DNA of 64,000 bases from Burkholderia savannae. Its GTDB lineage: Bacteria; Pseudomonadota; Gammaproteobacteria; Burkholderiales; Burkholderiaceae. The stretch is taken from NCBI RefSeq assembly GCF_001524445.2, contig NZ_CP013417.1, forward strand, positions 124,001 through 188,000, in the 5' to 3' direction. Below are positions 36,613-44,072 of this stretch, piece after piece (position 1 is the stretch's first letter; every line of letters begins with the position of its first letter). Position numbers and translations under genes: made by a program. A model generated the notes under the pieces. It made no database searches. It saw only the letters and a list, made by a program, of their open reading frames with translations, and was not told where the DNA came from.

Positions 36613-36803
36613 CCTTTGTCTCCTCCGATAAAAGGCGTGCTCATTATGACGACGGTGTTTCAAACAGGACAGAGTTGTAAGCTAGAGCGTTTTCCCTAGA
36701 ATTCGCACGACCGTACGTATTCCCGCACCGCGGCGGGCTTTGGCGCGGACGCACTTATACGAGCCTTCGGGTATTTCCTAACGCGATCAAATGGACATTC
36801 AGC

Positions 36804-37517
36804 ATGGCACGGCTAGCACGACTTTACGTACCTGATCAGCCGCAGCACGTGATTCTACGCGGCCTTGATCAGCAACCGGCGTTCGTCGACGACCAGGATT
36901 ACGAATTATTCATCGATTGCCTGAAGGCGGCGGCGCGCGATCATCATCTGGCGGTGCACGCATACGTGCTGCTGCCGCGCCAGGTCCAGCTCCTCGTGAC
37001 GCCGAGCGACGAGGCGAGCCTGCCGAAGGCGATGCAGGCCGTCGGCCGTCGCTACGTCGCGCATTTCAACCGGCGCTATTCGCGGCGCGGCACGTTGTGG
37101 GAAGGGCGCTATCGCGCGACCGTCATCGAGGGCGAGCGCTACTTCCTGCTCGCGAGCCGCGTCGTCGAGATGAGCCCGGTGCGCGCGCAGCTCGTGACGA
37201 GCGCGGACGCGTACCGCTGGTCGAGCTATCGGCATCACGTCGGCCTTACCGTCGACAGCCTGATCACCGACCACCCACTCTACTGGGCGCTCGGCAACAC
37301 GCCGTTCGAGCGACAGCGCGCGTACAAGGAGCTGTGCGAGCAGCCGCTCGACGAGCGTCAGGCCGATCAGCTCCAGCAGGCGACGTTGAAGGGCTGGGTG
37401 CTCGGCGGCGAAACCTACCGCGAATGGGCGGCGCGCACCGCGAACCGGCGCGTGTCGCCGCTGCCGCGCGGACGGCCCCGCAAGGTGCGCGAGAACACGC
37501 CGCCCATCCAGCAGTGA
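36804..37517 (+). CDS. Y1-transposase/RAYT-like protein lacking catalytic residues
   Basis: Protein of 237 residues of the IS200-like Y1 (TnpA_REP, RAYT) family: MARLARLYVPDQPQHVILRGLDQQPAF, then GTLWEGRYRATVIEGERYFLLASRVVEMSPVRA and YRWSSYRHH. In active members the metal-binding HUH motif reads PNHVHLL. Here it is PRQVQLL, with Gln60 and Gln62 in place of both histidines. The catalytic tyrosine of the RYIELNPVRA block is Val120 (SRVVEMSPVRA). The reading frame is intact and no insertion-sequence ends are visible. It is probably a domesticated, non-catalytic nucleic-acid-binding protein, directly upstream of gltB. Confidence 0.85.
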   Translation: MARLARLYVPDQPQHVILRGLDQQPAFVDDQDYELFIDCLKAAARDHHLAVHAYVLLPRQVQLLVTPSDEASLPKAMQAVGRRYVAHFNRRYSRRGTLWEGRYRATVIEGERYFLLASRVVEMSPVRAQLVTSADAYRWSSYRHHVGLTVDSLITDHPLYWALGNTPFERQRAYKELCEQPLDERQADQLQQATLKGWVLGGETYREWAARTANRRVSPLPRGRPRKVRENTPPIQQ

Positions 37518-37540
37518 GCGCGCGGGCGGCGCGGCGCGAG

Positions 37541-37568
37541 GCGGCATCCGTGGATGCCGCTCATTTTT
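37541..37568 (+). terminator. Terminator after the RAYT-like gene
   Basis: Stem GCGGCATC (37541-37548) and GATGCCGC (37553-37560) with a CGTG loop, followed by TCATTTTTG. It separates this gene from the gltB promoter region. Confidence 0.75.
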
Positions 37569-37648
37569 GCCCCATTTTGATGCAGCCCCAATAAAATGAT
37601 GTGATCGTGCACCAAGTTTGTAATTGGGGATCGAACATCGGGATTTAG

Positions 37649-37678
37649 TTGCTATTCCTTTGATTCGTCGCGTATATT
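37649..37678 (+). promoter_or_regulatory. Candidate sigma-70 promoter of gltBD
   Basis: TTGCTA (37649-37654) and TATATT (37673-37678) are separated by 18 bases, giving a predicted start near 37685 and a leader of about 125 bases before gltB. It is the best promoter match in the 291-base gap. No sigma-54 GG-N10-GC signature was found. Confidence 0.5.
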
Positions 37679-37808
37679 CCGAATTCCGGCAATCGCAGCC
37701 CCACCCATTCCTGCACCGGCCGGCCGCGTCGCGATCCACACGAAGGGGGACGACGGGCAACAAGTACATGGTTCAACGGCCGCGAGGCCCCTTTCCGACG
37801 GTGTCCCC

Positions 37809-40800
37809 ATGATCGACCATCAGCAGTCGAAGAGCGCGCTTCCCGCCGCGCAAGGTCTGTACGACCCGCAAAACGAGCACGACGCCTGCGGCGTCGGCTT
37901 CGTCGCTCACATCAAGGGCAAGAAAAGCCACGAAATCATCGAGCAGGGTCTGAAGATCCTCGAGAATCTCGATCACCGCGGCGCGGTCGGCGCCGATCCG
38001 CTGATGGGCGACGGCGCGGGCATCCTGATCCAGATCCCGGACGCGTTCTACCGCGAGGAAATGGCGAAGCAGGACGTGACGCTGCCGCCCGCCGGCGAAT
38101 ATGGGGTTGGGATGATCTTCCTGCCGAAGGAGAGCGCGTCGCGGATCGCGTGCGAGCAGGAGCTCGAGCGCACCGTGAAGGCGGAAGGCCAGGTCGTGCT
38201 CGGCTGGCGCGACGTGCCGGTCGACCATGCGATGCCGATCTCGCCCGCGGTGAAGGCGAGCGAGCCCGTGATCCGCCAGATCTTCATCGGCCGCGGCAAG
38301 GACGTGATGGTGACGGACGCGCTCGAGCGCAAGCTCTACGTGATCCGCAAGACCGCAAGCCACCGGATTCAGGCGCTCAAGCTGAAGCACGGCAAGGAAT
38401 ACTTCGTGCCGTCGATGTCGGCGCGCACGGTCGTCTACAAGGGGCTGCTGCTCGCGGGCCAGGTCGGTGTCTACTATCGCGATCTGCAGGACGAGCGCGT
38501 CGTGTCGGCGCTCGCGCTCGTGCACCAGCGCTTCTCGACGAACACCTTCCCGGCGTGGGAGCTCGCGCACCCGTACCGGATGATCGCGCACAACGGCGAG
38601 ATCAACACGGTGAAGGGCAACGTCAACTGGCTGAACGCGCGCACCGGCGCGATCGCGTCGCACGTGCTCGGCGACGATCTGCCGAAGCTCTGGCCGCTCA
38701 TCTATCCCGGCCAGTCCGATACGGCCTCGTTCGACAACTGCCTCGAGCTGCTCGTGATGGCGGGCTATCCGCTCGTGCACGCGGTGATGATGATGATTCC
38801 GGAGGCGTGGGAGCAGCACACGCTGATGGACGACAACCGCCGCGCGTTCTACGAATACCACGCCGCGATGATGGAGCCGTGGGACGGCCCCGCCGCGATC
38901 GCGTTCACCGACGGCCGCCAGATCGGCGCGACGCTCGACCGCAACGGCCTGCGCCCGGCGCGCTACATCATCACCGACGACGATCTCGTGATCATGGCGT
39001 CGGAAGCGGGCGTGCTGCCGATCCCCGAATCGAGGATCGTCAAGAAGTGGCGCCTGCAGCCGGGCAAGATGTTCCTGATCGACATGGAGCACGGCCGGAT
39101 CATCGACGACAAGGAACTGAAGGACAACCTCGCGAACGCGAAGCCGTACAAGAGCTGGATCGACGCGGTGCGCATCAAGCTCGACGAGATCGAGCCGCAG
39201 GACGAGGACGTGGCCGCCGCGCGCCGCTCGTCGGCCGTGCTGCTCGACCGCCAGCAGGCGTTCGGCTACACGCAGGAGGACCTGAAGTTCCTGATGGCGC
39301 CGATGGCGCAGCAGGGCGAGGAAGCGGTCGGCTCGATGGGCAACGATTCGCCGTTGGCCGTCATGTCGAACAAGAACAAGACGCTCTACCACTACTTCAA
39401 GCAGCTGTTCGCGCAGGTCACGAACCCGCCGATCGATCCGATCCGCGAAAACATGGTGATGTCGCTCGTGTCGTTCATCGGCCCGAAGCCGAACCTGCTC
39501 GACACGAACAACATCAACCCGCCGATGCGCCTCGAAGTGTCGCAGCCCGTGCTCGACTTCAAGGACATCGCGAAGATCCGCTTGATCGATCGCTACACGG
39601 GCGGCAAGTTCAGCGCGTACGAGCTGAACATCTGCTATCCGGTCGCGTGGGGCAAGGAAGGCATCGAGGCGCGCCTCGCGTCGCTGTGCGCGGAAGCCGT
39701 CGACGCGGTGAAGTCGGGCTACAACATCCTGATCGTGTCCGATCGCAAGACGGATGCGGAGAACGTCGCGATTCCGGCGCTTCTCGCGACGTCGGCGATC
39801 CACACGCACCTCGTGCAGCAGGGCCTGCGCACGAGCACGGGCCTCGTCGTCGAGACGGGTTCCGCGCGCGAGACGCACCACTTCGCGCTGCTCGCCGGAT
39901 ACGGCGCGGAGGCCGTGCATCCGTACCTCGCGATGGAAACGCTCGCGAAGATGGCGCAAGGCCTGCCGGGCGACCTGTCGCCGGAGAAGGCGGTCTACAA
40001 CTTCACGAAGGCGGTCGGCAAGGGCCTGCAGAAGGTGATGTCGAAGATGGGCATCTCCACGTACATGTCGTACACCGGCGCGCAGATCTTCGAGGCGCTC
40101 GGCCTGTCGACCGAGCTCGTCGACAAGTACTTCAGGGGCACGGCGTCGAAGGTGGGCGGCATCGGCCTGTTCGACGTGGCCGACGAAGCGATCCGCCTGC
40201 ACCGCGACGCGTTCGGCGACAACCCGGTTCTCGCCGACATGCTCGACGCGGGCGGCGAATATGCGTTCCGCGTGCGCGGCGAGGATCACATGTGGACGCC
40301 CGATTCGATCGCGAAGCTGCAGCACGCGACGCGCGGCAACTCGTACCAGACGTACAAGGAATACGCACACCTGATCAACGATCAGACGAAGCGCCACATG
40401 ACGCTGCGCGGCCTGTTCGAGTTCAAGGTCGATCCGATGAAGGCGATTCCGATCGACGAGGTCGAGCCGGCCAAGGAGATCGTCAAGCGCTTCGCGACGG
40501 GCGCGATGTCGCTCGGCTCGATCAGCACGGAAGCGCACACGACGCTCGCGATCGCGATGAACCGGATCGGCGGCAAGTCGAACACCGGCGAAGGCGGCGA
40601 GGACGAGAACCGCTATCGCAACGAGCTGCGCGGCATTCCGATCAAGGTCGGCGACACGCTGAAATCGGTGATCGGCGACGAAATCGTCCGCGACATTCCG
40701 CTGAAGGAAGGCGATTCGCTGCGCTCGAAGATCAAGCAGGTCGCGTCGGGCCGCTTCGGCGTGACGGCCGAGTATCTCGCGTCGGCGGACCAGATCCAGA

Positions 40801-42512
40801 TCAAGATGGCGCAGGGCGCGAAGCCGGGCGAGGGCGGCCAGCTGCCGGGCCACAAGGTGTCCGAATACATCGGCAAGCTGCGCTATTCGGTGCCGGGCGT
40901 CGGCCTCATCTCGCCGCCGCCGCACCACGACATCTATTCGATCGAGGATCTCGCGCAACTGATCCACGACCTGAAGAACGTCAATCCGGTCGCGAGCATC
41001 TCGGTGAAGCTCGTGTCGGAAGTGGGCGTCGGCACGGTCGCGGCGGGCGTCGCGAAGGCGAAGGCCGATCACGTCGTGATCGCGGGCCACGACGGCGGCA
41101 CGGGCGCTTCGCCGCTGTCGTCGGTCAAGCACGCGGGCACGCCGTGGGAGCTCGGCCTCGCCGAGACGCAGCAGACGCTCGTGCTGAACCGCCTGCGCGG
41201 GCGCATCCGCGTGCAGGCCGACGGCCAGATGAAGACGGGCCGCGACATCGTGATCGGCGCGTTGCTCGGCGCGGACGAATTCGGCTTCGCGACGGCGCCG
41301 CTCGTCGTCGAAGGCTGCATCATGATGCGCAAGTGCCATCTGAACACGTGCCCGGTCGGCGTCGCGACGCAAGACCCGGTGCTGCGCGCGAAGTTCTCGG
41401 GCCAGCCCGAGCACGTCGTCAACTACTTCTTCTTCGTCGCCGAGGAAGCGCGCGAGATCATGGCGCAGCTCGGCATCGCGAAGTTCGACGATCTCGTCGG
41501 CCGCGCCGATCTGCTCGACATGCGCCGCGGCGTCGAGCACTGGAAGGCGAAGGGCCTCGACTTCTCGCGCGTGTTCTACCAGCCGGAAGGCTGCGAAGGC
41601 ATCGCGCGCCGCCACCTCGAATCGCAGGACCACGGCCTCGAGCGCGCGCTCGATCACACGCTGATCGAGAAGGCGAAGGCCGCGATCGACAAGGGCGAGC
41701 ACGTGTCGTTCATCCAGCCGGTGCGCAACGTGAACCGCACGGTCGGCGCGATGCTGTCCGGCGCGATCGCGAAGAAGCACGGCCACGACGGCCTCGCCGA
41801 CGACGCGGTCCACATCCAGCTGAAGGGCACGGCGGGCCAGAGCTTCGGCGCGTTCCTCGCGAAGGGCGTGACGCTCGACCTCGTCGGCGACGGCAACGAC
41901 TACGTCGGCAAGGGGCTGTCGGGCGGCCGGATCATCATCCGTCCGACCAACGACTTCCGCGGCAAGTCCGAGGAAAACATCATCTGCGGCAACACGGTGA
42001 TGTACGGCGCGCTCGAGGGCGAGGCGTTCTTCCGCGGCGTCGCGGGCGAGCGCTTCTGCGTGCGCAACTCGGGGGCGACGGCCGTCGTCGAGGGCACGGG
42101 CGACCACGGCTGCGAATACATGACGGGCGGCACGGTCGTCGTGCTCGGCGAGACGGGCCGCAACTTCGCGGCCGGCATGTCGGGCGGCGTCGCGTACGTG
42201 TACGACCCGGACGGCACGTTCGCCGCGAAGTGCAACAAGTCGATGGTCGCGCTCGATCCGGTGCTGCAGCAGGCCGAGCAGGAGCGCACGATCGATCCCG
42301 CGCTCTGGCATGCGGGCGCGACGGACGAAGCGCTGCTCAAGGGGCTCGTCGAGCGCCACTTTCAGTTCACCGGCTCGCCGCGCGCGAAGTCGCTGCTCGA
42401 AAACTGGGATGCGGCGCGCCGCCAGTTCGTGAAGGTGTTCCCGCACGAATACAAGCGCGCGCTCGGCGAAATCGGCGCGAAAAAGAAAGCGGGCGAGGTG
42501 CTCGCCGCCTGA
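37809..42512 (+). CDS. gltB: Glutamate synthase (NADPH) large subunit
   Basis: Makes glutamate from glutamine and 2-oxoglutarate. Protein of 1567 residues. A 26-residue propeptide precedes Cys27 ([10 protein letters not shown]), the N-terminal nucleophile of the glutaminase domain. Central and FMN-binding synthase domains follow, with [20 protein letters not shown] and [13 protein letters not shown]. The 3Fe-4S cysteines are Cys1170, Cys1176 and Cys1181 ([12 protein letters not shown]), and the C-terminal GXGXG beta-helix domain ends the protein. It forms the holoenzyme with GltD downstream. Confidence 0.98.
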
Positions 42513-42605: not shown

Positions 42606-44072
42606 ATGGGCAAGATCACCGGTTTTCTGGAGTACGAGCGCCGTCACGAGGCGTACGAAGCGCCGCTCACGCGCGTGAAGCACTACAAGGAATTCGTCGC
42701 GGCGCTGACCGACGAGGACGCGAAGATCCAGGGCGCGCGCTGCATGGACTGCGGCATCCCGTTTTGCAACAACGGCTGCCCCGTCAACAACGTCATTCCG
42801 GACTTCAACGATCTCGTGTACCGCCAGGACTGGCGGCAGGCGATCGACGTGCTGCACTCGACCAACAACTTCCCCGAGTTCACGGGCCGCATCTGCCCGG
42901 CGCCGTGCGAAGCGGCGTGCACGCTCGGGATCAACGACGACGCCGTCGGCATCAAGTCGATCGAGCACGCGATCATCGACAAGGCGTGGGCGCAAGGCTG
43001 GGTCGAGCCGCAGCCGGCCGCGCACAAGACGGGCAAGAAGGTCGCGGTCGTCGGCTCCGGCCCCGCGGGCCTCGCCGCCGCGCAGCAGCTCGCGCGCGCG
43101 GGCCACGACGTGACGGTGTTCGAGAAGAACGACCGGATCGGCGGCCTGTTGCGCTACGGGATTCCCGACTTCAAGCTCGAGAAGTGGCTGATCGACCGCC
43201 GGATGCGCCAGATGGAAGCGGAAGGCGTGACGTTCCGCACGAGCGTGTTCATCGGCCGCGATCCGCTGCCCGAGTCGATCGGCAACATGGCGAAGGAGAC
43301 GATTTCGCCGCAGACGCTGAAGGACGAATTCGACGCGGTCGTGATCGCGGGCGGCTCGGAGACGCCGCGCGATCTGCCGGTGCCGGGCCGCGAGCTCGCC
43401 GGCATTCATTACGCGATGGAGTTCCTGCCGCAGCAGAACCGCGTGAACGCGGGCGACAAGGTGGCCGATCAACTGCTCGCGAAGGGCAAGCATGTCGTCG
43501 TGATCGGCGGCGGCGACACGGGCTCGGACTGCGTCGGCACGTCCAACCGCCACGGCGCGAAGCAGGTCACGCAGTTCGAGTTGCTGCCGCAGCCGCCCGA
43601 AGCGGAGGACAAGCCGCTCGTGTGGCCGTACTGGCCGATCAAGCTGCGCACGTCGTCGTCGCACGAGGAAGGCTGCGAGCGCGACTGGGCGGTCGCGACG
43701 AAGCGCTTCGAAGGCAGGAACGGCAAGGTCGAGAAGCTGATCGCGGTGCGCGTCGCGTGGGTCGACGGCAAGATGCAGGAGGTGCCGAATTCCGAGTTCG
43801 AGATCAAGGCCGATCTCGTGCTGCTCGCGATGGGCTTCACGCAGCCGGTTGCGCCCGTGCTCGAGGCGTTCGGCGTTGCGAAGGACGCACGCGGCAACGC
43901 GCGCGCGGGCACCGAAGGCGACCGCGCGTACTACACGTCGGTCGACAAGGTGTTCGCCGCGGGCGACATGCGCCGCGGCCAGTCGCTCGTCGTCTGGGCG
44001 ATCCGCGAAGGCCGCCAGTGCGCGCGCTCGGTCGACGCGTACCTGATGGGCAGCTCGGAACTGCCGCGCTGA
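42606..44072 (+). CDS. gltD: Glutamate synthase (NADPH) small subunit
   Basis: FAD and Fe-S flavoprotein of 488 residues that passes NADPH electrons to GltB. The start [17 protein letters not shown] is preceded by an AGAGAA site. N-terminal cysteines of two 4Fe-4S clusters are in [17 protein letters not shown] and CPAPCEAAC. The FAD-binding [26 protein letters not shown] and the NADPH-binding [11 protein letters not shown] motifs are present. It is co-transcribed with gltB and followed by a strong terminator. Confidence 0.97.

Follow-up and report, generated by a model that had tools for sequence, protein, structure and literature searches.

Gene content of the locus and features of the encoded protein

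The DNA analyzed here, referred to as the window, is a 64,000-nucleotide stretch of the Burkholderia savannae genome (contig NZ_CP013417.1, positions 124,001 to 188,000). Our subject is a gene at 36804..37517 that encodes a homolog of Y1 transposases and lies 5′ of gltB and gltD, which encode the two subunits of glutamate synthase. An earlier note on this DNA had described a complete frame of 237 codons of the Y1/TnpA_REP type, with QVQ at residues 60–62 in place of the HUH motif and Val 120 in place of the catalytic tyrosine, and had suggested a role other than transposition, possibly directed at gltB. The description of the frame proved correct. The locus comprises the following features:

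36675..36702, + strand: promoter-like site 5′ of the transposase homolog, TTGTAA-16-TAGAAT (consensus match only)
36804..37517, + strand: dead Y1/TIRYT-type transposase homolog, 237 aa, Y1/TnpA_REP fold, QVQ at 60–62, V120
37540..37561, + strand: terminator-like hairpin 3′ of the transposase homolog
37579..37596, + strand: distal copy of a conserved site, GATGCAGCCCCAATAAAA
37586..37629, + strand: core of the site pair, 44 bp, spacer 26
37620..37636, − strand: proximal, inverted copy of the site, reading GTAATTGGGGATCGAAC on the + strand
37649..37689, + strand: gltB promoter-like block, TTGCTATTCCTTTGATTCGTCGCGTATATTCCGAATTCCGG, with almost no variation among 36 Burkholderia loci
37809..42512, + strand: gltB, glutamate synthase large subunit, the proposed target
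42606..44072, + strand: gltD, glutamate synthase small subunit (start inferred)

Pfam and NCBIfam searches with the window protein matched Y1_Tnp and REP_Tyr_transpos and no other families, and the Y1 core fold typical of TIRYT proteins is complete. The closest fold is that of TnpA_REP bound to a REP hairpin; TnpA of IS200/IS605 also shares it. A sequence search against PDB chains gave zero matches, and an Rfam scan of this stretch returned a single sub-threshold match. Both catalytic features of TIRYT proteins are gone: the HUH position reads RQVQ (reference motif NHVH or NH[YF]H) and the tyrosine segment VVEMSP instead of YIELNP. Another TIRYT feature, the SS serines past the core, is present as W139-S140-S141 and is conserved in intact and dead proteins. 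The window protein also bears the signature W161-x-x-G164-N-T-P-F168-x-R170 and a C-terminal G223-R-P225. Its gene occurs once in its own genome, not in the multiple copies of an active IS200/IS605 element. Source annotations call proteins of this type 'transposase'. Many orthologs of the Paraburkholderia type (P0009, P0112 and others) are longer, at 300–360 aa; those printed carry a Gly/Ser/Pro-rich extension past the GRP tail.

Repeated loss of catalytic residues under purifying selection

Catalytic residues have been lost in different ways among relatives encoded beside gltB. In Burkholderia (RQVQ at the HUH position and V at the tyrosine position, RQVQ/V) neither histidine nor the tyrosine remains, and N124 and N59, present in the intact consensus, have been lost too. 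Paraburkholderia is mostly GAVQ/V, Caballeronia mostly GAVH/V and Noviherbaspirillum SRVQ/L, while some Massilia and Duganella (GELH) and Janthinobacterium (DQLH) have kept the tyrosine. Residues have also been lost elsewhere on the tree, in families f4, f17, f19 and others, and some linked lineages have lost just one of the three catalytic residues. (The family name Oxalobacteraceae for f7 and the genus names of g codes were inferred from position among named loci.) The earlier note had regarded intact HUH and Tyr in relatives as a pointer to a decaying transposase. Such relatives exist in Pandoraea, Cupriavidus, the Ralstonia-like g23 and many Oxalobacteraceae, but they are equally linked to gltB, and their existence therefore does not point to simple decay.

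On a tree of 161 rows built without the motif columns, the catalytic state changed 12 times, with at least seven changes forced by supported branches; on a 256-row FastTree tree it changed 18 times. The 161 rows (157 of them distinct) derive from 226 loci after removal of eight without a RAYT gene, four short ones and 53 near-copies or overlapping fetches. Because the root of the tree was not inferred, the direction of change, loss rather than regain, is deduced from intact outgroups. Among distinct gltB-linked rows, 62 are intact and 67 have lost catalytic residues. H, H and Y were kept in 40 of 40 hits from 32 genomes in the same order sample that are not linked to gltB, these hits being the fetched part of the listed ones, taken from the top of the list. 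Likewise, the 27 top-scoring loci from outside the order all keep H, H and Y; none has NTPF and none is beside gltB.

The pattern W-x-x-G-N-T-P-F-x-R is common to linked proteins, whether dead or intact, and unlinked relatives are without it. In 133 linked rows, gaps not counted, W161, T166, P167, F168, R170, G223, R224 and P225 are invariant; residues 60, 62, 120 and 124 vary freely in dead linked proteins. In a set of 256 proteins, 102 intact and 95 dead ones have NTPF, and 54 intact and five dead ones lack it. One intact genome in the Oxalobacteraceae set of 58 has ANTPF.

How strongly is the dead gene maintained? We found it in all 65 Burkholderia genomes searched, with 95–100% identity and, in every genome, a best match free of stop codons. 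The frequent frameshifts that the earlier note would have taken as a sign of decay were thus looked for in these best matches and not found, and frameshifting was rejected as a general feature; two small genomes, G085 and G145, probably carry broken or truncated copies. Across 36 distinct Burkholderia loci, the median ratio of nonsynonymous to synonymous substitution rates (dN/dS, by a counting method, from pairs that are not independent) was 0.040 for the RAYT gene, compared with 0.070 for the 5′ portion of gltB and 0.164 for an ompW-like neighbor. For the gene it was 0.073 in Paraburkholderia plus Trinickia and 0.063 in Caballeronia. The suggestion that selection has kept the gene is thereby upheld: the ratio is not near 1. 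Codons 60, 62 and 120 specify Q, Q and V in 36/36 Burkholderia loci, with synonymous variation at 62 and 120, and the loss of both catalytic motifs is accordingly fixed. The gene shows one feature expected of a transposase-derived regulator with a TldR-like mode of action, namely lost catalysis combined with a fold and a gene kept under selection.

Distribution and linkage to gltB

The gene stands beside gltB in 36/36 Burkholderia loci read, and the synteny holds beyond this genus. In several Burkholderiales families it lies 5′ of gltBD, mostly at a distance of 0.1–1 kb; the named linked set includes Burkholderia, Paraburkholderia, Caballeronia, Trinickia, Pandoraea, Cupriavidus, Herbaspirillum, Collimonas, Massilia, Duganella, Janthinobacterium, Undibacterium, Polaromonas, Curvibacter, Ramlibacter and others. 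Across the order, gltB was listed for 149 genomes, and in at least 49 of these a RAYT gene on the same strand lies no more than 6 kb 5′ of it. Among the matches listed, linkage is complete in f1 (11/11), f7 (10/10), f47 (10/10), f17 (5/5), f3 (1/1) and f31 (1/1), is partial in f4 (6/10), f9 (3/9) and f19 (2/9), and was seen in no genome of 17 other families. A relative of the gene occurs in 234 of 249 family genomes; gltB is also missing from 14 of the 15 genomes without the gene, and it is present in all 15 others checked. Protein distances of RAYT and gltB are correlated (Spearman 0.586, n = 128 distinct loci, 0/499 permutations as high), as expected of vertical descent.

At L079 and L081, and at L347 and L348 (g124), an intact NTPF-type gene lies away from gltB, 0.73 Mb away in G459, and the region upstream of gltB carries tandem sites, a natural trans arrangement. 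Some Paraburkholderia-type genomes (L224, L225 and L226) have a second dead paralog, DAVQ/V or GGVH/L, with a decayed signature; the stretches fetched around these paralogs contained no gltB. Second, remote RAYT relatives are also carried by G008 and G034.

A conserved pair of sites between the gene and gltB

In most linked lineages the region between the gene and gltB contains ACTCTGTCCCYAATTAA followed, mostly 48–50 bp further on, by ACTCYGACCCYAATTATT, which together make a direct pair of ~18-bp sites. The site fits the reverse complement of GGGGWSAS, a motif of several TIRYT end repeats among those described in PMC3733652. Clear GGGGWSAS repeats flank many intact linked relatives, and the window has only diverged copies, on the gltB side. 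The earlier statement that insertion-sequence ends are lacking at this locus is not supported: end-like sites are present.

Scoring by weight matrix with 60 shuffles per region found the tandem pair 5′ of gltB in 84/84 distinct intact-linked loci (94 rows with ten double entries; partly the training set) and in 55 of 58 dead-linked loci outside Burkholderia sensu lato (s.l.). It was also found in six of seven genomes in which a dead gene has been relocated from gltB and in 2/2 with an intact gene elsewhere. No pair was found in 19 gltB upstream regions that have no adjacent RAYT gene. These controls began as 20 regions, from which the two with an intact NTPF-type gene elsewhere were grouped apart and to which G065 was added; the criterion was absence of a RAYT gene beside gltB, not genome-wide absence of NTPF-type genes. 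An earlier, strict site expression under-counted the pair (38/64 intact, 19/35 dead, 3/31 Burkholderia s.l.) and was replaced by the matrix.

For Burkholderia s.l. the general direct-pair model passed only 6/31 loci and gave way to an inverted geometry. A model of the inverted pair derived from 24 of the 36 Burkholderia loci matches 35 of 36 loci of related genera, with an offset of 42 in 34 loci and 43 in one (37–45 permitted). In some Burkholderia s.l. loci both half-sites share the same variant, for example GGAACC in L215. The exact core is present in 43 of 65 Burkholderia genomes, once in each, 68–74 bp past the last codon, and a reversed-pattern control gave 0. Its length is always 44 bp (36–52 permitted) and its spacer always 26. 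In the window the core at 37586–37629 is one match present against 0 expected. The idea of a gltB-directed role thus gains a candidate DNA site pair 5′ of gltB.

In Oxalobacteraceae genomes, dead and intact alike, the predicted −35 box of gltB directly adjoins the proximal site (judged by eye in 53 regions). Within the 41-bp gltB promoter block of Burkholderia, the spacer and bases past the −10 box are conserved as well, exceeding the needs of a bare promoter. We dropped this block as a candidate shared element, as outside Burkholderia s.l. and, in part, Pandoraea it scored little or no higher than shuffled sequence.

Dispersed copies and element ends

At least three off-locus copies of the site were present in eight of 34 Oxalobacteraceae genomes with an intact enzyme and in none of the 24 whose enzyme is dead (p = 0.016 by Fisher's test, which takes no account of relatedness); off-locus copies totaled 123 in the former and three in the latter, and no dead genome had more than two. 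Between 25 and 32 exact copies accompany an intact gltB-linked enzyme in a Collimonas-like genome (L379–L381, G287:C1) and a Massilia-like one (L382, G499:C2), and could represent a REPIN-like family for TnpAY1 subclass 2.1. Of the 32 copies in the Collimonas-like genome, 24 form 12 inverted pairs spaced by 32–45 bp; each of the three examined folds into a hairpin of ~65 nt. These pairs resemble a short element that the intact enzyme has dispersed.

Retention of the element ends was counted over distinct loci, with random shuffles. The end 5′ of the gene is kept in 54/84 intact and 25/58 dead loci (p = 0.016) and in 0/31 of Burkholderia s.l., and the gltB-side end in 82/84 and 51/58, respectively, and in 9/31 of Burkholderia s.l. 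(general model). This contrast is no more than suggestive of a tie between site and protein.

Relation to known systems

By descent the window protein belongs with TIRYT, or TnpAY1 subclass 2.1 (Bertels group 1, as cited in PMC6006769); since both catalytic features are lacking, we do not count it as a working member. The two agree in length class (median 238 for the subclass), in the common Y1 core, in the SS serines past it and in having a C-terminal extension, and the GGGGWSAS-like end repeats of TIRYTs match those of the window protein's relatives. Unlike TIRYTs, the window gene has lost HUH and Tyr, is fixed and single-copy, stands beside gltB and encodes its own W-x-x-GNTPF-x-R signature. 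PMC3733652 reports HUH and Tyr for all its TIRYTs and describes TIR families as moderately abundant in some species; PMC6006769 describes subclass 2.1 as without REP-like repeats near the gene and the tails of subclass 2.1.2 as resembling helix-turn-helix.

E. coli TnpA_REP (4ER8) is active on single-stranded hairpins and REPs occur genome-wide (PMC8266576), whereas catalysis is lost in the window protein and the site pair is found once in matching Burkholderia genomes. TnpA proteins of IS200/IS605 (IS608, ISDra2) share the Y1 HUH fold but, according to PMC6006769, are mobile, multicopy and short, with active residues. In its proposed mode of action the window protein resembles TldR, the nuclease-dead TnpB regulators described in PMC13418256. 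Alike are several independent catalytic losses, a new tie to a neighboring host gene and retained nucleic-acid binding, the last of which is presumed for the window protein. TldR proper is RNA-guided and has the TnpB/RuvC fold, whereas the window protein has the Y1 fold and is TnpA-derived, no guide RNA is indicated, and its proposed operator is an old element end.

A putative regulator of gltBD and the alternatives

Catalytic loss, selection, synteny, the rigid site pair and the dispersal of at least three copies only alongside an intact enzyme can all be read from the sequences. We infer that the protein binds the site pair and alters gltB transcription. Overall, in our view the product of the window gene, which has lost HUH and Tyr and is under strong purifying selection, quite probably derives from a TIRYT-type Y1 transposase and acts as a DNA-binding regulator of gltBD. 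The protein would bind the pair as double-stranded DNA and adjust transcription from the promoter just 3′ of it; the sites lie 5′ of the predicted −35 box, a position that fits an activator or modulator, and two molecules bound at a fixed spacing would suit a regulator. Duplex contact would probably be made by the C-terminal part (W-x-x-GNTPF-x-R and the GRP tail), the best candidate because it holds the most conserved signature and because of the helix-turn-helix likeness that PMC6006769 notes for subclass 2.1.2 tails. As to history, an ancestor shared by several Burkholderiales families may have acquired a TIRYT element 5′ of gltB. The end repeats of this element would have turned into an operator and its transposase into an operator-binding protein, and DNA cutting, then dispensable, would have been lost many times. 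The stages would be an intact enzyme spreading hairpin copies, a dead enzyme with the pair only at gltB, and a dead enzyme acting in trans. We lean, by a small degree, toward the fuller statement that an HUH transposase turned in place into a gltB transcription factor and its terminal repeats into an operator, with repeated loss of catalysis and all stages represented in Burkholderiales.

A number of observations weigh against the proposed regulator. Its sites are recognized from conservation alone, and the 84/84 score is partly built in, as the model was trained on the intact-linked group. The window pair has diverged from the TIRYT consensus, like most of Burkholderia s.l. under the general model; the exact core pattern is not matched in 22 of 65 Burkholderia genomes, 12 of 36 Burkholderia loci fell outside the training expression of the inverted model, and L044 (g14) failed that model. 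In g20, g21 and g6 (L180–L185, L172) the gene has left the side of gltB, being 13 kb off in g6, which loosens its description as 'locked to gltBD', although the site pair stays 5′ of gltB in g20 and g21 and in six of seven such genomes overall. G065 has gltB and neither gene nor sites, and the co-absence of gene and gltB is confounded by genome reduction. Dispersal of three or more copies is missing from 26 of 34 intact Oxalobacteraceae, and the Fisher values overstate independence because the genomes are related. As the gltB-side end is better kept than the other in intact lineages too, part of the end-retention contrast has a cause other than loss of catalysis. GNTPF is replaced by SDTPF or SDAPF in two dead genomes of Oxalobacteraceae (G575 and G602). 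A Pfam search of the C-terminal piece found no helix-turn-helix, and this piece alone gave a weak model (pTM 0.49) for which a fold search returned no PDB match. Finally, solved Y1 complexes, judged by their titles, contain DNA hairpins, not spaced duplex sites.

Could the site pair serve gltB independently of the protein? It might be a promoter part left by the old element, either an activating stretch rich in A/T or a sequence recognized by a different regulator, with a separate role for the dead protein. Since the proximal site directly adjoins the −35 box predicted in the Oxalobacteraceae regions inspected, its loss could harm gltB whatever the protein does. However, the pair was found in none of the 19 control regions, three or more dispersed copies occur only with an intact enzyme, and the two half-sites of some Burkholderia s.l. 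loci share a variant (as with GGAACC in L215), which makes this explanation rather unlikely. We give still less credence to binding of single-stranded DNA or RNA hairpins, such as the gltB leader or replication-fork DNA, in place of a duplex operator. It draws on the TnpA_REP–hairpin complex as closest fold and on the long hairpins formed by dispersed copies in the Collimonas-like genome, but the sites at gltB are direct pairs in most lineages and, lying 5′ of the predicted promoter, would fall outside its leader. The binding of hairpin DNA or RNA suggested in the earlier note gains no support from the direct or widely spaced inverted pairs at gltB.

That the gene is simply a decaying selfish one whose deletion is still to come seems very improbable. 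Catalysis is indeed lost and the copies in G085 and G145 are probably damaged; on the other side stand its presence without stops at 95–100% identity in 65/65 genomes, a signature conserved over many dead lineages and, above all, the dN/dS of 0.04, because of which we reject simple decay. Equally hard to credit is a protein that still processes DNA, with other residues doing the chemistry. The fold is complete and some linked lineages lack just one of three residues, but Burkholderia proteins are without both histidines, the tyrosine, N124 and N59, and more than two off-locus copies were found in none of the 24 dead Oxalobacteraceae.

Implications

Glutamate synthase is a main entry of nitrogen into amino acids. 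In our searches of open-licence literature, no title or abstract tied a RAYT or TIRYT protein to this enzyme. Members without a catalytic site were set aside by one survey, which treated sequences without core motifs as non-functional and retained 722 of 924 (PMC6006769). If the window protein and its relatives do regulate gltBD as proposed, they would form a replicated natural series leading from a transposase and its ends to a regulator and its operator, and would be a TnpA counterpart of the nuclease-dead TnpB regulators. For several bacterial families, the same reading predicts a testable regulator of nitrogen assimilation.
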